NCBI RefSeq assembly: GCF_000702165.1
Contig: NZ_JNKU01000015.1
Span: 1-48,570 of the forward strand
Direction: 5' to 3'
DNA from: Sharpea azabuensis DSM 18934
Lineage (GTDB): Bacteria; Bacillota_I; Bacilli_A; Erysipelotrichales; Coprobacillaceae
Length of the DNA stretch: 48,570 nt
A program made the position numbers and the translations under genes. Below, piece after piece: positions 29,461 through 41,563 of this stretch. The notes beneath the pieces are model-generated. The model searched no databases. It was given only the letters and a program-made list of their open reading frames with translations, and had not been told where the DNA came from. Numbering within the stretch: the first letter of the stretch is position 1; each line of letters starts with the position of its first letter.

Positions 29461-31389
29461 ATGAATTATTGCAAAGCTATATTGTTTATAATTGGATATT
29501 TAACAATAATCTATATCATAGGAACAGCAATAGGTGCAAAATACAGTGCACCTAGAAGATTTATTTATGGTTATTTACTAAATACATTTATTGTTTCAGC
29601 TGCTGGCATCTTTACACAAATGTTTGCAATTAATTGGTATATTTACTACTATTTTGTTTTAATTGTTGATTTGTTGATGCTTATTGCATCGATTTATAAA
29701 ATACGTAGAGATGGCATTATATTATTCGATGGTGGTTTTCGTAGTTTTGTTTCAAATTATTGGTTTCTCATTCTAGTTGCCCTTATTGCCACTAGTTTAG
29801 TTGCAATCTATAATTTTGAACTTTGGGATAATAATACTACTGATGATGCTTATTATTTAGCAAGGATGGCGTATTACCCATATATAAAGAATCCGTATTC
29901 TATCGATCCAACTACAGGGTTCCCATCTGTACATAAAATAATTGATTTACGAAATTTTACGAGCTTTGAAATTGAAGCATCTGTATATATCTACTTCTTA
30001 AAAATATATTCAACGTTATTTGCCCGTGGAGTAATGTCTTTTATTAACTACTTTATTTTCTCAGTAAGTATATATGCCTTTGTTGAAAAAGTAATAGAAG
30101 TATCTGGATTAGAAGTTCGTCGCCAAAATATTCAATACTATTCCATTATCATGCTGTTACTTTGTTTTGAAACAGCTCAATTAGCAATCCATGGAATAAT
30201 TGATATTCGAGATGGTTGGATGATAAACCATGCCATGTATTTTGGCGCTTCACTTATTCGTTCAGTTGGCTTTATTTGGTTATTAATCCCTGTTTTAGAG
30301 TTTGAAGAAGATAAGAAAAAATCAATTCTATTATTTGTGATTATGGCATTTGTTCTGCTGGCCAAATCTACTGTTGTTATTCCTATTATAGCTGTTGTCG
30401 GTATTGTTGGTCTTGCATATCATCTAATATTAATGAAAGATAAACGTATACTGATTTATGTAGTTCTATTAATTTTATTTAGTTTTTTATTAGGAAACAA
30501 CTGGCAAAATAGTTTAACTAATTATACTGATGGGGTTTATTATAATCATCTATACGATAATCTCAAATCACCAATTATTATTATATTTGAAGTTTGCATA
30601 TTATTTATTGCTTTCATAAGAAGAAAGAAATATTTGAAAACAAATATTCTTTTTGCTTTAATTTGCATAATGTTTATAATACCTCCATTGAATAATATAA
30701 TTGAAAAAACATCGGTGTATGCATTTGTTGATAAGCGTGCTGTTTCTGCTTTTACAATGCTTATTGTTTTATATGCTTGTATTTTAGTATTAAATGAAGT
30801 GTTTATATATATTACAAGTATTTTCAAAAATGTTTTAGTTAGAAATATTGGTTTTACCCTATTATCTATAATAATTGCTTTATCATCAGCCTTGACAGTT
30901 GATAAATCACTCAACAATATTAAACAAGATTTAATTGTATTTAAGAATAATCGCTATTTGGCACCATCATTTATAATTGACTTAGCTGATGACTTGAATG
31001 ATATAAGTAAGCAAACACAAAAACAATTAACCATTCTTACACCACAATTTGTTTCAGCCCAGCAAGATTATCATCAAAGATGGTATAATCGAAAAAAAGA
31101 GATCCCTAATATTGCGTTGGCTGGTTCAATAAGACAATTTGCACCAACAGTTCGTGTTCCATTTGCAAGAAATGGTGATGACACTTTGTTTGAAAAATAT
31201 AGTGCATTTCTTTTCTATCCAAATAAAAAGAATTTTAATACCTTTATACATGTACAAAGAAAATCAGAAGTGAATTGTATTGTTATGTGGAATAAAAAGG
31301 GAGATAGATTATTAAAAGATAGTGGTTTTAAACGTTATAAAAATAAAGTATCTTCGCAGTATTGTATCTTGTATATCTATTATAAATAG
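29461..31389 (+). CDS. Large multi-spanning membrane protein (DUF6077-like)
   Basis: 642 residues, about 12 membrane segments in the first 480, then a soluble C-terminal part of about 150. The first large loop has NTTDDAYYLARM followed by a proline-rich stretch, in the position where GT-C transferases hold their acidic catalytic residues. Similar proteins, grouped as DUF6077 in my memory, occur in Firmicutes polysaccharide loci. A role as lipid-linked sugar transferase on the outer face is therefore possible, and would suit the DPM1-like enzyme at 38024. It stands 60 bases after the Wzz-like gene. The function is not established. Confidence 0.6.
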   Translation: MNYCKAILFIIGYLTIIYIIGTAIGAKYSAPRRFIYGYLLNTFIVSAAGIFTQMFAINWYIYYYFVLIVDLLMLIASIYKIRRDGIILFDGGFRSFVSNYWFLILVALIATSLVAIYNFELWDNNTTDDAYYLARMAYYPYIKNPYSIDPTTGFPSVHKIIDLRNFTSFEIEASVYIYFLKIYSTLFARGVMSFINYFIFSVSIYAFVEKVIEVSGLEVRRQNIQYYSIIMLLLCFETAQLAIHGIIDIRDGWMINHAMYFGASLIRSVGFIWLLIPVLEFEEDKKKSILLFVIMAFVLLAKSTVVIPIIAVVGIVGLAYHLILMKDKRILIYVVLLILFSFLLGNNWQNSLTNYTDGVYYNHLYDNLKSPIIIIFEVCILFIAFIRRKKYLKTNILFALICIMFIIPPLNNIIEKTSVYAFVDKRAVSAFTMLIVLYACILVLNEVFIYITSIFKNVLVRNIGFTLLSIIIALSSALTVDKSLNNIKQDLIVFKNNRYLAPSFIIDLADDLNDISKQTQKQLTILTPQFVSAQQDYHQRWYNRKKEIPNIALAGSIRQFAPTVRVPFARNGDDTLFEKYSAFLFYPNKKNFNTFIHVQRKSEVNCIVMWNKKGDRLLKDSGFKRYKNKVSSQYCILYIYYK

Positions 31390-32638: not shown

Positions 32639-33517
32639 ATGAAGGGAATTATTCTTGCAGGTGGGTCTGGTACGAGACTTTACCCATTGACAATGGTAAC
32701 GAGTAAACAGCTCTTGCCTATTTATGACAAACCAATGATTTATTATCCATTATCAATCATGATGCAGGCAGGTATTAAAGAGATTCTTATTATTTCTACA
32801 CCAGCTGATACACCAAGATTTGAAGAGCTTTTAGGTGACGGTCATCAGTTTGGTATTCACTTGCAATATAAGGTACAGCCTAGTCCTGATGGCTTAGCTC
32901 AAGCATTCATTCTTGGTGAAGAATTCATCAATGGTGATAGCTGTGCTATGATCCTTGGTGATAATATCTTCCATGGTCATGGCCTTACAAAACGTTTAAG
33001 GGCTGCAGCTAATAGAGAAACAGGAGCTACAGTATTTGGTTATTATGTTGATGATCCTGAGAGATTTGGTATTGTTGAGTTTGATGATGAAGGTAAGGCT
33101 ATTTCTATTGAAGAAAAGCCAGCACATCCTAAATCAAACTACGCTGTTACAGGACTTTACTTTTATGACAAGAACGTTGTAGAATACGCAAAGCAGATCA
33201 AGCCTAGTGCACGTGGTGAACTAGAAATTACTGATTTAAATAATATCTACTTACAAAAAGGTCAATTGAATGTAGAATTATTAGGACAGGGATTTACATG
33301 GCTTGATACAGGCACACATGAAAGCTTAGTTGATGCGACAAACTTCGTTAAGACAGTTGAGCAGCATCAACATCGTAAGATTGCTTGCTTAGAAGAAATT
33401 GGTTATAGAAATGGCTGGATCACTAAGGAAGACTTACTGAAAGCTTATGAACCTTTAAAGAAGAACCAGTATGGTGCTTATTTGAAGGATATTATTGATG
33501 GTAAATATATTGATTAA
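32639..33517 (+). CDS. rmlA: Glucose-1-phosphate thymidylyltransferase
   Basis: 292 residues, the standard size. [13 protein letters not shown] at the N-terminus is the nucleotide-binding signature, followed by [17 protein letters not shown] and the LGDNIFHG and EKPAHPKSN loops. It joins glucose 1-phosphate and dTTP to dTDP-glucose, the first step to dTDP-L-rhamnose. The ATG at 32639 is preceded by AGAAGGAGAA; an earlier in-frame start would run through the terminator hairpin and is rejected. The gene opens an A-B-D-C set. Confidence 0.97.
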
Positions 33518-33530
33518 GAGGAGAAATAAA

Positions 33531-34562
33531 ATGAAAATTATTGTTACTGGTGGAGCTGGATTTATTGGATCTAACTTTGTATTCCATATGCTTAAAGAAC
33601 ATCCTGATTATGATATTATCTGTCTTGATAAGTTAACTTATGCAGGTAACTTATCAACACTTGCATCAGTTATGGATAACCCACACTTCAAGTTTGTAAA
33701 GCTAGATATCTGTGATAGAGAAGGCGTATATAAGCTATTTGAAGAAGAACATCCAGATATCGTTGTAAACTTTGCAGCTGAATCACATGTTGATAGAAGT
33801 ATTGAAAACCCAGAAATCTTCTTACAGACAAACATTATTGGTACGGCTACATTAATGGATGCATGTAGAAAATATGGCATTAAGAGATATCATCAGGTAT
33901 CTACTGATGAAGTCTATGGTGATCTTCCATTAGATCGTCCTGACTTGTTCTTTACAGAAAACACACCAATTCATACATCAAGCCCATATTCATCATCTAA
34001 GGCTGGTGCTGACTTATTAGTACTTGCATATCATAGAACATATGGCCTTCCTGTTACTATTTCTAGATGTTCTAATAACTATGGACCATATCACTTCCCA
34101 GAAAAGCTTATTCCATTAATGATCATCAACGCATTACATGACAAACCATTACCAGTCTATGGTGAAGGTAAGAATGTACGTGACTGGTTATATGTTGAAG
34201 ATCATTGTAAGGCTATTGACTTAATCATTCATAAGGGTAAAGTTGGTGAAGTTTATAATGTTGGTGGTCATAACGAAAAGACAAATATTGAAATCGTTAA
34301 GATTATCTGTAAGGAATTAGGTAAACCTGAATCACTTATTACACATGTAGAAGATAGAAAGGGTCATGATATGAGATATGCGATTGATCCTACAAAGATT
34401 CATAATGAATTAGGATGGTTACCAGAAACTAAGTTTGAAGATGGTATTAAGAAGACTATTCAGTGGTACTTAGATAATAAGGAATGGTGGGAAAATATTA
34501 TTTCAGGTGATTATCAGAATTACTATCAAGAAATGTACGGACATAGAAAGGAAGTCAAGTAA
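33531..34562 (+). CDS. rmlB: dTDP-glucose 4,6-dehydratase
   Basis: 343 residues. TGGAGFIGS binds NAD; STDEVYG carries the Thr-Asp-Glu catalytic trio; YSSSKAGAD provides Yxxx[18 protein letters not shown] is the substrate-binding stretch. It converts dTDP-glucose to the 4-keto-6-deoxy intermediate of rhamnose synthesis. AAGAGGAGAAATAAA precedes the ATG, which lies 13 bases after the rmlA stop. Its last base starts the ATG of rmlD, so translation is coupled. Confidence 0.97.
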
Positions 34563-35476
34563 TGAAAGTATTTGTTACTGGTGTTGCTGGCCAGCTAGGT
34601 CATGATGTCATGAATGAGCTGTCTAAAAGAGGCTATGAGGGTGTAGGAACTGACTTAGCACCTGAATATTCTGGTGTTCAGGACAACAGTCCTGTTACCA
34701 AGATGCCTTATGTTTCACTGGACATTACTGATGCATCTGCTGTAGAAGCAACAATTAAAGAAGTCAATCCCGATGTCATCATTCATTGTGCTGCCTGGAC
34801 TGCAGTAGATATGGCTGAAGATGATGACAAGGTAGAAAAGGTAAGAGCTATTAATGCTGGTGGTACACAAAATATTGCCAACATTGCAAAAGAACTAGAT
34901 GCAAAGATGGTTTATATCTCAACTGACTATGTCTTTGATGGACAAGGTGAACAACCATGGGAACCAGATTGTAAAGATTACAAACCACTCAATGTTTATG
35001 GACAAACAAAATTAGAAGGTGAATTGGCAGTAGCCAATACACTTGATAAGTACTTTATTGTTCGTATTGCATGGGTATTTGGTTTGAATGGCAAGAACTT
35101 CATTAAGACAATGTTGAATGTGGCAAAAACACATGACACAGTCAAGGTTGTCAATGATCAAATTGGTACACCAACATATACATATGATTTAGCTAGATTA
35201 TTAGTAGATATGGTTGAAACTGATAAGTATGGCTATTATCATGCAACTAATGAAGGTGGCTATATTTCTTGGTATGACTTTACTAAGGAAATCTATAGAC
35301 AGGCAGGTCTTGATACTAAGGTGCTTCCTGTGACAACTGCTGAATATGGTCTCTCTAAAGCAGCACGTCCATTCAACAGCAGACTTGATAAGTCTAAGCT
35401 CGTAGAAAATGGCTTTACACCATTACCTACATGGCAGGATGCCCTGTCAAGATACTTAAAAGAAATCAAAGAATAA
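34562..35476 (+). CDS. rmlD: dTDP-4-dehydrorhamnose reductase
   Basis: 304 residues. VTGVAGQLGHDV is the nucleotide-binding start of RmlD, STDYVFDG and VYGQTKLEGE (YxxxK) follow, and RPFNSRLD near the C-terminus is the typical substrate loop. It catalyses the NADPH-dependent last step to dTDP-L-rhamnose. It overlaps rmlB by one base and precedes rmlC, giving the order A-B-D-C rather than the more frequent A-C-B-D. Confidence 0.96.
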   Translation: MKVFVTGVAGQLGHDVMNELSKRGYEGVGTDLAPEYSGVQDNSPVTKMPYVSLDITDASAVEATIKEVNPDVIIHCAAWTAVDMAEDDDKVEKVRAINAGGTQNIANIAKELDAKMVYISTDYVFDGQGEQPWEPDCKDYKPLNVYGQTKLEGELAVANTLDKYFIVRIAWVFGLNGKNFIKTMLNVAKTHDTVKVVNDQIGTPTYTYDLARLLVDMVETDKYGYYHATNEGGYISWYDFTKEIYRQAGLDTKVLPVTTAEYGLSKAARPFNSRLDKSKLVENGFTPLPTWQDALSRYLKEIKE

Positions 35477-35498
35477 GAGTTACCTGCAGGTAACTCTT
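35475..35498. terminator. 24-bp perfect palindrome between rmlD and rmlC
   Basis: Twelve bases from AAGAGTTACCTG are mirrored exactly, so the DNA reads the same on both strands. RNA would fold into a hairpin with little or no loop. The tail is TTTCAC without a real T run, so termination should be weak. It begins at the rmlD stop and could be a processing or mRNA-stability signal, or a protein site. Confidence 0.55.
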
Positions 35499-35525
35499 TC
35501 ACAATGTAGAAAGAAGGATTAAATT

Positions 35526-36134
35526 ATGGGACAGATTAAAGTAGAAAAGAATGTAGGCGGTATTGAAGGCTTACATGTCATCACACCAGCTGTACATGGT
35601 GATGATCGTGGTTATTTCACAGAAACATATAATCAAAGAGATATGCATGAAGCAGGCTTAGATATGGTCTTTGTACAGGATAATGAATCCTATTCAACAA
35701 AGGGCGTATTAAGAGGCTTACATTTCCAGAAACAATATCCACAAGGAAAATTAGTAAGAGTTGTAAAAGGTTCTGTATTTGATGTAGCTGTAGACTTAAG
35801 AGCCAACTCTAAGACTTATGGTAAGTGGTATGGTGTAGAACTAACTGAAGATAACCATAAACAGTTCTATATATCAGAAGGCTTTGCCCATGGTTTCTTA
35901 GTATTAAGTGATGAAGCTAAGTTCTGTTATAAAGTGACTGATTTCTGGCATCAGGGTGATGAAAGTGGTCTTGCCTGGAATGATCCTGAAATTGGTATTG
36001 TATGGCCTCATCTTGTTGGTGAATACAAGGGTACTGCAGATCCTTCATCATACAAGCTTGATGATGGTACTGAACTTAACTTCTCAGATAAAGATAAGCT
36101 TTGGTTACCATTAAAGGATACATTTAAATTTTAG
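35526..36134 (+). CDS. rmlC: dTDP-4-dehydrorhamnose 3,5-epimerase
   Basis: 202 residues, slightly longer than the usual 180-190. A cupin fold is indicated by RGLHFQ (catalytic His), VFDVAVDLR (Asp), ISEGFAHGFLVLSDEA and the CYKVTDFW tyrosine. It epimerises C3 and C5 of the 4-keto-6-deoxy sugar before RmlD acts. AGAAAGAAGGA precedes the ATG. It closes the rhamnose set and is followed by a terminator. Confidence 0.96.
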   Translation: MGQIKVEKNVGGIEGLHVITPAVHGDDRGYFTETYNQRDMHEAGLDMVFVQDNESYSTKGVLRGLHFQKQYPQGKLVRVVKGSVFDVAVDLRANSKTYGKWYGVELTEDNHKQFYISEGFAHGFLVLSDEAKFCYKVTDFWHQGDESGLAWNDPEIGIVWPHLVGEYKGTADPSSYKLDDGTELNFSDKDKLWLPLKDTFKF

Positions 36135-36141
36135 AAGTGCT

Positions 36142-36172
36142 AAAAGAAGTCTTTCATATAAGGCTTCTTTTT
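36142..36172 (+). terminator. Rho-independent terminator after rmlC
   Basis: AAAAGAAG and CTTCTTTT pair across a loop whose inner part (TCTT/AAGG) also pairs imperfectly, and the downstream arm ends in a T run. It ends the first large unit; a new promoter follows. Confidence 0.7.
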
Positions 36173-36191
36173 AATAACTTCTAAAATAATG

Positions 36192-36206
36192 AATTTCGTG
36201 TATAAT
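36192..36206 (+). promoter_or_regulatory. Second polysaccharide-locus promoter (-10 block)
   Basis: AATTTCGTGTATAAT, identical over 15 bases to 19264-19278, with TATAAT at 36201-36206. The -35 is again weak. The expected transcription start near 36213 lies upstream of the GGAGGT ribosome binding site at 36241. Confidence 0.65.
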
Positions 36207-36250: not shown

Positions 36251-36979
36251 ATGAATATCGCATTAATATTTGCAGGTGGCAAGGGTACACGCATGGGAGC
36301 TAGCTTACCTAAACAATTTTTAAAAATCAACGGTAAAGAAATATTATTTCATACAATAGATTTATTTCAAAAGAACAGCTCTATTGATAAAATTTATGTT
36401 TCAACAATAGATAGTTTTATAGATCATGTCAAAGAAGAAGTAGAAGTGGGGCATTACACTAAAGTAGTTGACGTTATTTGTGGAGGAGATTCAGCACAAG
36501 ATACCATTTATAAACTTCTAATGAGGGCAAAACAAGACAATGCTGGTGATTCTATTGTTTTGTTGCATGATGGTGTCAGACCTTTTGTGGCAAGTAATGT
36601 TATCGAAAAAAATATAGAGAGTGTAAAACAGTATGGTAATGCAATAACGTCTTTTCCAGCATATGAAACAGTTATGATTGCACAAGACGATAATGTAGTA
36701 AATGATGTAACAATAAGAGAACATACCTATCTTGGACAGGCACCACAGAGTTTCTACCTTGATGATATTATTGCTGCTCATGACCAAATAAGAAAAAGAC
36801 CAGAAGGCTATAAAGATATGGTAGATGCTGCTACAATAGTAAGAACAATTGGTGGTAAAACACATCTTGTAAGAGGAAATCGTGGAAATATTAAGATAAC
36901 AACGCCAGAAGATGTTTATACATTTAGAGCATTCTTACAATATCGTGAGGATAAAGAAACATTTGGTTTGGAATTATAG
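36251..36979 (+). CDS. IspD/TarI-type cytidylyltransferase
   Basis: 242 residues. IFAGGKGTRMG and LPKQFLKINGKEIL are the CTP-binding loop and catalytic lysine region; LHDGVRPFV, GQAPQSF and VRGNRGNIKITTPED complete the family pattern. IspD makes CDP-methylerythritol; TarI makes CDP-ribitol. Being at the head of a polysaccharide unit with an SDR and a LicD protein favours a CDP-polyol for the polymer. An in-frame ATG at 36239 overlaps the GGAGGT site that serves the ATG at 36251, so the latter is the start. Distinguishing IspD from TarI needs comparison or assay. Confidence 0.88.
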   Translation: MNIALIFAGGKGTRMGASLPKQFLKINGKEILFHTIDLFQKNSSIDKIYVSTIDSFIDHVKEEVEVGHYTKVVDVICGGDSAQDTIYKLLMRAKQDNAGDSIVLLHDGVRPFVASNVIEKNIESVKQYGNAITSFPAYETVMIAQDDNVVNDVTIREHTYLGQAPQSFYLDDIIAAHDQIRKRPEGYKDMVDAATIVRTIGGKTHLVRGNRGNIKITTPEDVYTFRAFLQYREDKETFGLEL

Positions 36980-36988
36980 GAGCTTAAA

Positions 36989-37969
36989 ATGGATTATTTA
37001 TTTTTAAAGAATAAAAGAATTATTATTACTGGAGCAACAGGATTGATTGGCAAATCATTAGTTAAGAAGTTAAATGATGTCAATCATGCATATCAGCTTA
37101 ATTTACAAATTCTAGCAGTTGTTCGTAATGAAACAAAGGCTAAGAAGCTTTTTGCAGAATATTCTTGTGTGGAATATATAGTGTCAGATATTCTTGAGTT
37201 AAATGCGGAGGATTATCGTGCTGACTATTTTATTCATGCAGCAAGTATGACATCTAGTAAAGCTTTTGTTGAAAAACCAATAGAAACATTAGAAACAGCT
37301 ATTGAAGGAACAAAGAATGCATTAAAGCTTGCAAAGAAGAATAATGTTAAAGCATTTGTATATCTTTCTAGTATGGAAGTTTATGGAGCTCCACAAACTG
37401 ATGAAAAGATTAATGAAACACATTCAACCAATATTGATACTATGCAAGTTAGAAGCTGTTATCCTGAAAGTAAACGTATGTGTGAAAATATTTGTGTTTC
37501 ATATGGGAAAGAATATGGATTACCAGTTCGTATACTTCGCTTAACACAAACATTTGGGCCAGGTGTCGAATATAACGATGGACGTGTTTTTGCAGAATTT
37601 GCAAGATGTGCGATTGAGGGGAAAGATATTATCTTACATACAAAAGGTCTTACAAAACGTTCATACCTTTATACTGAGGACTGTGTTGAAGCCATCCTTA
37701 TAACGTTAAGCAATGGGCATGACTTTGAAGCATATAATGTTGCCAATGAAGAAACATACTGTACTATTTATGGCATGGCTAAGTTATGCGCAAAACTAAG
37801 TAGATATCCTATTAAAGTTAAGATTGAAGAGGAAGATATTAGCCAGCATGGTTATGCTCCTGTATTACATATGAATTTGGATACTAAGAAAATCCAAACG
37901 ATTGGATGGAAGCCATCATTTAATCTACAAGAAATGTTTATAAATCTTATAGATTATATGAAAAAATAA
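36989..37969 (+). CDS. NAD-dependent epimerase/dehydratase (extended SDR) paired with the cytidylyltransferase
   Basis: 326 residues. TGATGLIGKSL binds NAD(P); VYLSSMEVYGAP and YPESKRMCEN (YxxxK) give the catalytic centre; RLTQTFGPGVEY and KRSYLYTEDCVEAI follow. It sits nine bases after the cytidylyltransferase. In the known TarI-TarJ pair the partner is a medium-chain dehydrogenase making ribitol 5-phosphate; here an extended SDR takes that place, so it may reduce or epimerise the sugar before or after CDP activation. Substrate unknown. Confidence 0.85.
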   Translation: MDYLFLKNKRIIITGATGLIGKSLVKKLNDVNHAYQLNLQILAVVRNETKAKKLFAEYSCVEYIVSDILELNAEDYRADYFIHAASMTSSKAFVEKPIETLETAIEGTKNALKLAKKNNVKAFVYLSSMEVYGAPQTDEKINETHSTNIDTMQVRSCYPESKRMCENICVSYGKEYGLPVRILRLTQTFGPGVEYNDGRVFAEFARCAIEGKDIILHTKGLTKRSYLYTEDCVEAILITLSNGHDFEAYNVANEETYCTIYGMAKLCAKLSRYPIKVKIEEEDISQHGYAPVLHMNLDTKKIQTIGWKPSFNLQEMFINLIDYMKK

Positions 37970-37997
37970 TTGGAAAATAATACCTTTGTGATATAGT
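37970..37997 (+). promoter_or_regulatory. Possible internal promoter
   Basis: TTGGAA (37970-37975) and TATAGT (37992-37997) are 16 bases apart, just after the SDR stop and 26 bases before the next start. It could raise expression of the later genes. Confidence 0.35.
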
Positions 37998-38023
37998 GAA
38001 ATAAATTTGAAAAGGAGTTATGT

Positions 38024-38716
38024 ATGTTAAAAACGCTTATTATTATTCCTGCCTATAATGAGGCGCTCAATATTAAGAATACAATTGAAGATATAAAAGA
38101 AAATGCTCCTGATGTTGATTATATTGTTGTAAACGATGGATCAAAGGATGATACACTCGAAAAATTAAATTTATATAATTATAACTATATTAATGGCTTC
38201 CAAAATCAAGGATTATTTGGTGCGGTACAAACTGGCTTTAAATGGGCACTTTATAACGATTATGATGTAGCAATTCAGTTTGATGGGGATGGCCAGCATT
38301 CTGCACTTTATATTAAAGACCTAGTTAAAGCAATAGAAGAAGGCAATAATATCTCAATAGGCTCACGATTTGTCAATGAGAAGAAGCCATTAACGCCAAG
38401 AATGCTTGGTAGTCGTTTGATTACCTTTGCAATAAAACTAATGACTGGAAAAAGAATCAATGACCCAACAAGTGGATTTAGAGCATATGATCGTAGTTGT
38501 ATTGAACATTATGCGAATGATATGAATAATCCTCCTGAACCAGATACACTTGTATGTATGCTAAAAAATGGGAAGAAGATAAAAGAAGTTCAAGTCACAA
38601 TGAGTGAAAGAGAATATGGTGAATCATATTTAAATCCAATTAATTCAATTAAATATATGGTTACTCAGCTTATTTCAATATTTCTTATCCAGTCCTTTAG
38701 AAAGGTAGGTAAATAA
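38024..38716 (+). CDS. Glycosyltransferase family 2, polyprenyl-phosphate sugar synthase (DPM1-like)
   Basis: 230 residues. IIPAYNEALNI, VVNDGSKDDT and IQFDGDGQH (DXD region) mark a GT2 of the dolichyl-phosphate-mannose synthase branch; SRFVNEKKPLTPRMLGSRL and DPTSGFRAYDR are typical of it. No membrane segments are in the protein. Such enzymes load one sugar on polyprenyl phosphate for later transfer outside the cell. The following gene encodes the membrane DUF2304 partner usually found beside them. AAAAGGAG precedes the ATG. Confidence 0.88.
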   Translation: MLKTLIIIPAYNEALNIKNTIEDIKENAPDVDYIVVNDGSKDDTLEKLNLYNYNYINGFQNQGLFGAVQTGFKWALYNDYDVAIQFDGDGQHSALYIKDLVKAIEEGNNISIGSRFVNEKKPLTPRMLGSRLITFAIKLMTGKRINDPTSGFRAYDRSCIEHYANDMNNPPEPDTLVCMLKNGKKIKEVQVTMSEREYGESYLNPINSIKYMVTQLISIFLIQSFRKVGK

Positions 38717-38717
38717 T

Positions 38718-39080
38718 GTGAGTTTATTACAACAAATTGTTTTTATTTTTGCGAGTTTATTTACTTTTGCTTTTATTATTAAAAAAATTACTAGAAATAA
38801 TCTCGCTATATCTGATTCTATTGTATGGATTTTATGGTCATTATTTTTACTTATTATCAGTATTTTTCCACAAATACCAACAGTAATCTCAAGAGTTTTA
38901 GGGTTTAGATCAGTTAGTAATTTTATTTTTACAATGTTTATTTTTTTTATGTATATCATGCTTTTTTATCAAACTATTCTTATTTCGCAGCTAAAAGGTA
39001 AAAATAGGGATCTCGTTCAAAAACTAAGTATTAAAGATTACCAGGAATATCTTGATAAAAAGGAAAATAAAAAGAAGTAA
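38718..39080 (+). CDS. DUF2304 membrane protein
   Basis: 120 residues, three or four membrane segments and a Lys-rich C-terminus. The SDSIVWILWSLFLLIISIFPQIP stretch is the hallmark of DUF2304. These small proteins are commonly encoded next to DPM1-like GT2 genes and may anchor the transferase or help flip the lipid-linked sugar. The start is GTG at 38718, two bases after the GT2 stop codon; AAAGGTAGG lies inside the end of that gene. Confidence 0.85.
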   Translation: MSLLQQIVFIFASLFTFAFIIKKITRNNLAISDSIVWILWSLFLLIISIFPQIPTVISRVLGFRSVSNFIFTMFIFFMYIMLFYQTILISQLKGKNRDLVQKLSIKDYQEYLDKKENKKK

Positions 39081-39191
39081 GTACTTGAAACCACGTTATT
39101 GCTATCATCATTATTTTATTAATAACTGATTCTGGTCTATTGAAATTAATCATAGAAATTGAACATTTTTTGAAGGTAGGGAGTGGAAACT

Positions 39192-40007
39192 ATGAAACAA
39201 ATAGAATCAAATGAGATTCAGCCAATACTATTAAACTTACTTAAGCAATTTAAGAAATATGCAACGCAGCATGAATTTGAATTTTTGCTTTGTGGTGGGA
39301 GTTTATTAGGTGCTGTAAGACATGAAGGTTTTATCCCTTGGGATGACGATATTGATCTTCATATTACAAAGGATACATTTGAGAAATTAATGGCACTAAC
39401 TAAAGAAAATCCTTATATAGATGAAGAAAAGCGTTATAAGATTATAGCACCTGGAAATAAAGATTACATATATCCATATTTCAAATTAATAGATACAAAA
39501 ACAATTCTTTACGAAGAAAATATAAAAAAGAGATATGCTGTGGGAGTATGGATTGATATATTTTGTTTATCATACCTTCCAGAAAACGATGAAGAATATT
39601 TGCCTTTATTTAATAAACAGCAACATTATAAAAAAATTAATAAATTTTTAATTGCAGGTGATTTCGCAAGTCCTGCTTTAAGATTTTTTTCACCAATTTT
39701 AAGACTTATTCAAAAGCTCCTTAATGTCTTTGGAATAACAAGCTCATGGTGCTCAAAAAAAATACTTTCATTAGATACTTTAAAATCAAGTAATATTATT
39801 GGTAATATTCATTGGCCATCTTCTACTAGAGATCGTTTTGAGAAAAATTGGTTTGATAGAACTGTGGAACTTCAATTTGAAGATGATGTATATTTAGCAC
39901 CAATCGAATATGATAAAGTTCTGAAAACATTATATGGTGATTATATGAAACTTCCTCCTGAAAAAGATCGAGTAATGCATTCTTTTGAGGCATATTATGT
40001 TGAATAG
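39192..40007 (+). CDS. LicD-family phosphotransferase
   Basis: 271 residues. FLLCGGSLLGAVRH, GFIPWDDDIDLHI with its Asp cluster and the later YFKLIDTKT and GVWIDIFCL are the LicD/fukutin signature. These enzymes transfer phosphocholine or a phosphopolyol from a CDP donor to a glycan. The cytidylyltransferase at 36251 could supply that donor. GGGAG lies eight bases before the ATG at 39192; a GTG nine bases earlier has poorer spacing. No choline kinase or licC-like choline cytidylyltransferase is seen. The last 11 bases overlap the next gene. Confidence 0.88.
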   Translation: MKQIESNEIQPILLNLLKQFKKYATQHEFEFLLCGGSLLGAVRHEGFIPWDDDIDLHITKDTFEKLMALTKENPYIDEEKRYKIIAPGNKDYIYPYFKLIDTKTILYEENIKKRYAVGVWIDIFCLSYLPENDEEYLPLFNKQQHYKKINKFLIAGDFASPALRFFSPILRLIQKLLNVFGITSSWCSKKILSLDTLKSSNIIGNIHWPSSTRDRFEKNWFDRTVELQFEDDVYLAPIEYDKVLKTLYGDYMKLPPEKDRVMHSFEAYYVE

Positions 40008-40923
40008 AAATCAAGTCGCTGTTGTCATGAGTACATATAATGGTGAAAAATATATTCGTGAACAAATAAATTCTATTTTGACTCAAGAAGATGTGGATAT
40101 TCATCTCTTTATTAGAGATGATGGTTCAAAAGATAGTACATTATCAATAATAAAAGAATTTGATATGAAATACGCAAATATTCACTTAATGCTAGATGGA
40201 CAAAATTTAGGACCAGCAGTGAGTTTTATGCATTTACTCTATCAAATTAACGGTTATGATTATTATGCTTTTGCTGATCAGGATGATATTTGGAAAAAGA
40301 GAAAAATGATAACAGGTATTCAAAGAATACAAAGTAAGGATGAACCAGCATTGTATTGCTCCAATCAAATACTCTATATCGATGGAAAAGAAACAGGGTA
40401 TCGATTTGAATCTGCACCACCAACAGACTATTTAAGTACTCTTTTTGCTAATAAAATCTCAGGATGCACAATGCTCTTCAATGATAAATTATTTCGTATT
40501 CTAGTCAATGAACAAAAACGTGTTTCAGATGAAATCTTGCGTTTAAGAATGCATGACACTTGGGTGATGCTTGTTGCGGATTTGATGGGGACGATAGTCT
40601 ATGATAATGAATCTTATATAGATTATCGGATTCATTCAAACAATACAGTGGGAGTCAAAACAAAAAGTACTTTTGAAATAATAAAAACAACACTGAAACA
40701 CCTTAACAATAAAAAAGCACTAGCTTGGCGTAGATGCACAGCAAATGAGATTATCAATAAACTTTCGATTAAAGATGAAAGAAAAAGAAAAACTATTGAA
40801 AAGCTTTCTAATGTATATACTTTGCATAATAAAATAGAGTTATTCAAAGATAAAGGAATTCTAGAAAAAAGTGGTTTATCAAAATATGTGTATTTCACGT
40901 ATATTTTATTAGGATGGCTTTAG
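39997..40923 (+). CDS. Glycosyltransferase family 2, rhamnosyltransferase-like
   Basis: 308 residues. VAVVMSTYNGEKYIREQI, IRDDGSKDST and YAFADQDDIW identify the GT2 branch that includes many L-rhamnosyltransferases. RMHDTWVMLVA and SYIDYRIHSNNTVG follow as usual. It begins inside the LicD gene, with TTGAGG as ribosome binding site; the ATG at 39997 is preferred to an in-frame TTG at 39985. dTDP-rhamnose from the rml genes is the plausible donor. Confidence 0.88.
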   Translation: MLNRNQVAVVMSTYNGEKYIREQINSILTQEDVDIHLFIRDDGSKDSTLSIIKEFDMKYANIHLMLDGQNLGPAVSFMHLLYQINGYDYYAFADQDDIWKKRKMITGIQRIQSKDEPALYCSNQILYIDGKETGYRFESAPPTDYLSTLFANKISGCTMLFNDKLFRILVNEQKRVSDEILRLRMHDTWVMLVADLMGTIVYDNESYIDYRIHSNNTVGVKTKSTFEIIKTTLKHLNNKKALAWRRCTANEIINKLSIKDERKRKTIEKLSNVYTLHNKIELFKDKGILEKSGLSKYVYFTYILLGWL

Positions 40924-40933
40924 GAGAAGAATA

Positions 40934-41563
40934 ATGAATATAGTAATTGAAGATATAGGTGGCTATGTAAGTATGCTTGTTCATCGCCATCGCTGGAAAA
41001 AGAAGTATGGAACTAATACCTACCCAACAAATATTTTCAAAATTCCATGTGTTAGCGTAGGAAAAGGAACTTATGGACCAATTAAAGCTATAACTTCAAC
41101 ATTAGAGGCAAAACTAATTATTGGAAATTACTGTTCAATAGCTGAAGGAGTAACATTTGTCGTGAGCTCTGATCATCCAACAAACTATTTATCAACATTT
41201 CCATTTAAAAAACGCATTATTCATAATGGTGATGATGCAGTTACTAAAGGAGATATTATTATAGGTGATGATGTTTGGATTGGAACAAATGCAATTATAT
41301 TAAGTGGTGTAAAAATTGGTCAAGGAGCAGTTATAGCAGCAGGATCAGTAGTAACAAAAAATGTACCATCTTATTCAATTGTAGGAGGAGTACCAGCAAA
41401 GGTCATTAAGTATCGATTTGATCAACAGACAGTCAATAAATTGTTGACACTAGATTTAAGTAAACTTTCAAAAGAATCAATTATTAAATATGAAGAATTA
41501 TTATATAAAAATGTTAATGATGTAGATATTGAGGAATATCAGAAAATACTTAATAGCAAATAG
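40934..41563 (+). CDS. CatB-related O-acetyltransferase (hexapeptide repeat)
   Basis: 209 residues. A left-handed beta-helix is indicated by the I/V-G-x-x repeats (IGNYCSIAEG, IIGDDVWIGTNAIIL, GVKIGQGAVIAAGSVVTKNV). The catalytic His is in SSDHPTNYLSTFPF, a pattern of xenobiotic/CatB-like acetyltransferases, and GGVPAKVIKYRF closes the domain. In a polysaccharide locus it should O-acetylate a sugar using acetyl-CoA. It follows the GT2 gene by ten bases. Confidence 0.92.
   Translation: MNIVIEDIGGYVSMLVHRHRWKKKYGTNTYPTNIFKIPCVSVGKGTYGPIKAITSTLEAKLIIGNYCSIAEGVTFVVSSDHPTNYLSTFPFKKRIIHNGDDAVTKGDIIIGDDVWIGTNAIILSGVKIGQGAVIAAGSVVTKNVPSYSIVGGVPAKVIKYRFDQQTVNKLLTLDLSKLSKESIIKYEELLYKNVNDVDIEEYQKILNSK

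Follow-up and report, generated by a model that had tools for sequence, protein, structure and literature searches.

A proposed CDP-alditol synthesis and transfer module in a rhamnose-containing polysaccharide cluster of Sharpea azabuensis DSM 18934

In the analyzed stretch of Sharpea azabuensis DSM 18934 DNA (hereafter the window: 48,570 nucleotides, the whole of contig NZ_JNKU01000015.1, labeled C14, of a 2.41-Mb genome), we found that the genes for a PF01128 cytidylyltransferase, an extended short-chain dehydrogenase/reductase (SDR) of family PF01370 and a PF04991 LicD protein are intact and lie in a single plus-strand run at positions 36251-40007. We propose, with a probability of roughly 0.72, that they form a module for synthesis of a cytidine diphosphate (CDP)-alditol and for its use in decorating a rhamnose-containing surface polymer. 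A first-pass annotation of the window had suggested a CDP-polyol-type decoration module in which an SDR occupies the place of the dehydrogenase TarJ. This is still the best reading, except that the SDR is not an unexplained stand-in and appears to belong with CDP-ketose reductases such as HS5.17 of Campylobacter jejuni. Gene pairs of the HS5.18/HS5.17 type have already been described from Campylobacter capsule (PMC10918830), and most likely the window pair adds to them rather than representing a new system. A chance origin of the three-enzyme run is excluded by the family scores, by the ribosome-binding sites visible in the sequence and by the fact that dozens of genomes have kept the pair.

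The cytidylyltransferase is distinct from the IspD and TarI of the genome

Databases label enzymes of this kind as IspD or ribitol-phosphate cytidylyltransferase, whereas a CDP-ketose route is what the tree, residue 139 and the SDR partner indicate. Whole-genome checks, performed as protein family profile searches of the contigs, located a housekeeping IspD on contig C9 (224 bits with the ispD model TIGR00453; cut-off 181) and a canonical TarI on contig C18 (374 bits with NF001183, the D-ribitol-5-phosphate cytidylyltransferase model; cut-off 166). The window enzyme scored 157 bits with the former model, below its cut-off, and 178 bits with the latter. It is neither the IspD nor the TarI of this genome; a search for a second ispD had been put forward in the first-pass annotation, and it showed that the window enzyme is not the sole IspD. 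As IspF is also present (on C39, away from the window), the methylerythritol phosphate route has its own enzymes. On C18 (L034, 1069-10579), TarI is accompanied by a zinc-type TarJ-like dehydrogenase, an ABC exporter and TarL-like enzymes of family PF04464; together they make up a cluster of teichoic-acid type that lies apart from the window.

A tree of 75 sequences placed the window enzyme (CYTIDYLYLTRANSFERASE, 36251-36979) outside the TarI clade and among SDR-paired enzymes, one of which is the HS5.18 orthologue of a C. jejuni genome locus (L090) whose SDR is 89% identical to HS5.17; support was moderate (SH-aLRT 97 for the TarI clade, 89 for the remainder) and some deep branches are long. 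Two signature residues follow the same division. Among the 68 SDR-paired rows, glutamate occupies position 139 in 66, that of the window included, and alanine occupies position 164 in 52; every TarI and IspD sequence in the comparison has aspartate at the former position and threonine at the latter. The window enzyme carries A164. On these sequence grounds we propose that it is a ketose-phosphate cytidylyltransferase. No relative of it was found in viral contigs.

The same data bear on a TarI-like ribitol route, in which the cytidylyltransferase would take ribitol 5-phosphate, the SDR or a TarJ encoded elsewhere would first reduce ribulose 5-phosphate, and LicD would transfer ribitol phosphate. 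The NF001183 score above cut-off is consistent with it, as is the enterococcal polysaccharide antigen (EPA) of Enterococcus faecalis V583, for whose decoration such a transfer has been proposed. EPA carries ribitol phosphate, and its locus encodes, beside the rhamnan, EF2172 as a TarI homologue, EF2171 as an epimerase/dehydratase and the LicD proteins EF2168 and EF2175 (PMC7188991). Yet, the cut-off is passed only marginally when set beside the true TarI of the genome, the enzyme lies outside the TarI clade with E139/A164 instead of D/T, and a TarI/TarJ-like pair is already present. We consider this route unlikely. In another locus (L026, 3478-7049), an SDR-paired cytidylyltransferase and its SDR directly precede a canonical TarI-TarJ pair, an arrangement which argues for separate roles of the two pairs.

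The SDR resembles CDP-ketose reductases

The best PDB matches of the window SDR were the C. jejuni HS5.17 entries 8v4g and 8v4h, with 182 bits against 120 for the next match. In the fold search, its model (pLDDT 95) gave a Z score of 40.6 to 8v4h versus 37.0 for UDP-glucuronic acid decarboxylase, the next enzyme. We found that the window protein and HS5.17 are identical at 14 of 16 checked positions lining the cofactor or ligand site, E140, R164, Y167, K171, Q196, R208 and R233 among them; it departs from HS5.17 at the other two by D212E and F226H, the contact of F226 being made through its backbone. The window SDR has the YxxxK motif, and all six residues through which HS5.17 contacts CDP and the open-chain sugar (E140, R164, T195, Q196, R208 and R233) are identical in it; epimerases whose loci lack a cytidylyltransferase have other residues in the pocket. 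In the SDR tree, the window protein lies within a 55-row clade (SH-aLRT 100), and almost all loci of this clade have a PF01128 gene as well. Judged by sequence and model, we propose that the SDR belongs with the CDP-ketose reductases of HS5.17 type, which implies that cytidylyl transfer would probably come first and reduction second.

We also considered that the SDR might have nothing to do with the cytidylyltransferase and might, as a common epimerase, dehydratase or decarboxylase of NDP-sugars, supply a glycosyltransferase, with the cytidylyltransferase and LicD using some other polyol phosphate. PF01370 does span these activities, a decarboxylase comes directly after HS5.17 among the PDB matches, and EF2171 was assigned by the authors of the EPA model to UDP-rhamnose synthesis (PMC7188991). 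Still, such an enzyme would hardly be expected to share its pocket with HS5.17 rather than with unpaired epimerases, to have a CDP-ketose reductase as best match in both sequence and fold, and to stand directly beside the cytidylyltransferase gene in most relatives, across phyla; we regard this explanation as improbable.

Conservation of the gene pair

Conservation was assessed in loci L037-L107 and L024-L033, of which 66 hold both genes. The cytidylyltransferase gene is directly followed by the SDR gene in 50 of these; 34 of the 66 have a licD gene at a distance of up to about 6 kb, and 49 have a licD or tagF-like gene. Pairs of PF01128 and PF01370 genes were counted earlier at about 400 (Ghosh et al., 2024; PMC10918830). 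On plasmid records of Leuconostoc carnosum and Levilactobacillus brevis, LicD, IspD/TarI and SDR are annotated close together, and a class-wide search turned up further distant relatives. This conserved pairing in polysaccharide loci, together with the sub-threshold TIGR00453 score, the better copy on C9 and an IspF encoded elsewhere, makes it very improbable that the window enzyme is a second IspD for isoprenoid synthesis with neighbors acquired by chance, despite its PF01128 membership and the many ispD annotations in databases. The window cytidylyltransferase and SDR have different nearest relatives in their two trees, which suggests, as far as tree topology can tell, that the two genes may have exchanged partners.

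Single loci show variations of the arrangement. In one locus of a Hungatella-type metagenome-assembled genome (L042), cytidylyltransferase-like genes of the window kind occur three times and SDR genes twice, with licD between them. In a Parabacteroides distasonis plasmid (L138, 6232-8634), genes for a cytidylyltransferase, an SDR and a ribulose/allulose-phosphate epimerase stand in a row, which gives a hint at a ketose substrate in this relative. As a possible marker of a pentulose substrate, we sought rpe-like genes in all loci and found one inside the operon only here, and another about 6 kb away in L041. The L138 protein scores nearly equally as ribulose-phosphate and as allulose-phosphate epimerase and is therefore not decisive as to carbon number. 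Phosphonate-type chemistry was considered for those loci in which several genes separate the cytidylyltransferase from the SDR, and was dropped; by eye, the intervening genes that were inspected looked like those of TagF-like transferases, acyltransferases and parts of ABC transporters.

The LicD protein has an FKRP-type fold

The AlphaFold model of the LicD protein (pLDDT 92) has the FKRP catalytic domains as its best match (Foldseek E-value 3e-7), with a Z score of 16.7 over 169 residues, the next family remaining below 8. Its IPWDDDID motif supplies three aspartates equivalent to the DxDxD that is invariant in 32 LicD rows. The protein thus combines a PF04991 domain, the metal-binding aspartates and an FKRP-type fold, which places it in the LicD/FKRP family. 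The family name LicD might call to mind a phosphocholine-type module, in which phosphocholine or a related amino alcohol is attached, and the best NCBIfam match is indeed a cholinephosphotransferase, although with 77 bits it is far below the cut-off of 225; since no choline kinase (PF01633) was matched in the whole genome, in agreement with the lack of choline genes noted at first pass, the nucleotidyltransferase is of IspD rather than LicC type and the SDR would be left without a role, this is scarcely credible.

Proposed pathway and its weight

In the proposed pathway, the enzyme encoded at 36251 would form a CDP-ketose from CTP and a ketose phosphate, either fructose 6-phosphate or a pentulose 5-phosphate. 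The SDR, given its close pocket match, would then use NAD(P)H to reduce the ketone at C2, yielding a CDP-alditol. This order would be that of HS5.18/HS5.17 and Mnp1/Mnp2 and the reverse of TarJ-then-TarI. Finally LicD, to judge from its family, fold and catalytic aspartates, may move the alditol phosphate to a polymer sugar or a lipid-linked repeat, leaving a phosphodiester.

Within this explanation, a hexitol (glucitol or mannitol) has about an even chance of being the product, being favored by the HS5.17-like pocket. Ribitol is possible but less probable, disfavored as it is by the TarI/TarJ-like pair already in the genome, and the same modest chance is given to another pentitol, e.g., arabinitol. 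The ribitol phosphate of E. faecalis EPA points the other way as to carbon number, and the epimerase gene in the Parabacteroides operon may do so.

Several observations weigh against the CDP-alditol module as proposed here. Characterized enzymes are no closer than about 38% identity for the SDR and about 33% for the cytidylyltransferase (against the HS5.18 orthologue of L090), so that the substrate can differ from that of HS5.18/HS5.17. Although the window SDR falls within a 23-row set together with HS5.17 (SH-aLRT 97), HS5.17 sits on a long branch whose position is uncertain, and the N-terminal helix of HS5.17 is missing in the window protein. The HS5.17-like pocket is common to most of the family, including the Parabacteroides locus with the epimerase gene, and alone does not fix a six-carbon substrate. 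The C. jejuni HS5 locus has a TagF-like transferase where the window has LicD. As for LicD itself, neither it nor a TagF-like protein occurs in any of the 18 epimerase loci without a cytidylyltransferase, but these control loci come from other organisms, and the contrast, confounded by taxonomy, is suggestive only.

A bolder version of the proposal seems rather doubtful to us, namely that the pair makes a CDP-alditol new to bacterial glycans, e.g., from a less usual ketose phosphate, which LicD would place as a side-branch on the rhamnose polymer, with a separate CDP-ribitol pathway operating alongside. If the CDP-alditol module is correct, CDP-alditol synthesis would be the better reading of many "IspD" and "epimerase" annotations in polysaccharide loci of Bacillota and Bacteroidota, and one would expect LicD to be a common transferase for CDP-alditols. 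It also suggests a possible re-reading of E. faecalis EF2171, now placed under UDP-rhamnose, as a CDP-ketose reductase; being numbered next to EF2172, it could be one by gene order.

Gene neighborhood and transcription unit

We found that the module genes stand within a longer run than was originally described (Table 1). The three enzymes had been assigned to one unit, and all of them do lie in one plus-strand run, but that description omitted the family 2 glycosyltransferase (GT2) and DUF2304 genes at 38024-38716 and 38718-39080 and the genes past 40007, where the run extends to at least 41563.

Table 1. Features of the module and its surroundings in the window.
Feature	Position	Strand	Remarks
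rmlA, rmlB, rmlD, rmlC (dTDP-L-rhamnose genes), directly upstream	32639..36134	+	rmlC TIGR01221 226 bits; rmlA/B/D named from translations
Intrinsic terminator after rmlC	36142..36171	+	12-pair stem, then T-run
Candidate -10 element TATAAT	36201..36206	+	Perfect match, sequence only
Cytidylyltransferase, IspD/TarI superfamily, CTP-dependent, SDR-paired type	36251..36979	+	PF01128 143 bits
Extended SDR (proposed CDP-ketose reductase/CDP-alditol synthase using NAD(P)H)	36989..37969	+	PF01370 149 bits
GT2, polyprenyl-phosphate-sugar synthase (DPM) type, GacI/WpsA-like by family	38024..38716	+	PF00535
DUF2304 small membrane protein, proposed GacJ/WpsB-like GT2 partner	38718..39080	+	PF10066 88 bits
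LicD-family phosphotransferase	39192..40007	+	PF04991 129 bits; alternative GTG start 39183
GT2 glycosyltransferase, frame overlaps licD end	39994..40923	+	PF00535 68 bits
Hexapeptide acetyltransferase, after GT2	40934..41563	+	PF00132

The terminator region folds at -18.2 kcal/mol (36134-36182, outer pairs included). A promoter of its own for the module, behind the rml terminator, is plausible in view of the TATAAT element; upstream of this element no consensus -35 was seen, and a promoter scan gave no promoter there. Locus L024 has homologues of all four window rml genes at 83-92% identity.

The GT2 gene at 38024-38716 has PpgS as its best NCBIfam match, with 67 bits far under the PpgS cut-off. 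Its DUF2304 neighbor encodes what we take to be a GacJ-type protein. Together, the two resemble GacI/GacJ or WpsA/WpsB, which consist of a polyprenyl-phosphate-sugar synthase and a small membrane activator (PMC10821137). The same pair is found in locus L033 (10423-11519), with 73% and 55% identity to the window proteins. This locus also encodes a 29% homologue of the 642-residue membrane protein of the window at 29461-31389, which has a weak DUF6077 match and is a possible GT-C transferase for the product of the GT2/DUF2304 pair.

Comparison with known systems

The window cytidylyltransferase belongs to the same superfamily as TarI and, with its partner, would yield the same product class as TarI/TarJ (a CDP-alditol); in contrast to the PF01370 partner in the window, TarJ is a zinc-type medium-chain dehydrogenase/reductase that acts first. 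Unlike the bifunctional CDP-ribitol synthase Bcs1/Acs1, which is a fused chain, the window has two separate frames (36251-36979 and 36989-37969). As in the human ISPD and FKTN/FKRP system (PMC4873967), an IspD-superfamily enzyme would feed a LicD-fold phosphotransferase, but the human system as described has no SDR partner and a different acceptor, and identity over the LicD core is about 20%.

Compared by description, the E. faecalis V583 EPA locus is a rhamnopolysaccharide locus in which a TarI homologue, an epimerase/dehydratase and LicD likewise occur together with rml genes, and it also has a GacI-type enzyme; the window genome differs from it, as described, in having a separate TarI/TarJ-like pair. 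Also by description only, the window pair can be likened to Mnp1/Mnp2 (CDP-D-mannitol) and AbpA/AbpB, formerly Abp1/Abp2 (CDP-D-arabinitol), of Gram-positive capsule loci of Streptococcus pneumoniae. Mnp1/Mnp2 of pneumococcus 35A are the CDP-mannitol counterpart, proceeding via CDP-6-D-fructose and then a reductase (PMC10918830), and AbpA is a 240-amino-acid transferase in CDP-arabinitol synthesis (PMC10118250). The C. jejuni HS5 locus, from a different phylum, differs from the rhamnose-containing window cluster, yet both have PF01128 and PF01370 genes side by side in a surface polysaccharide locus, and it is there that HS5.17 reduces CDP-6-D-fructose to CDP-6-D-glucitol (PMC10918830).

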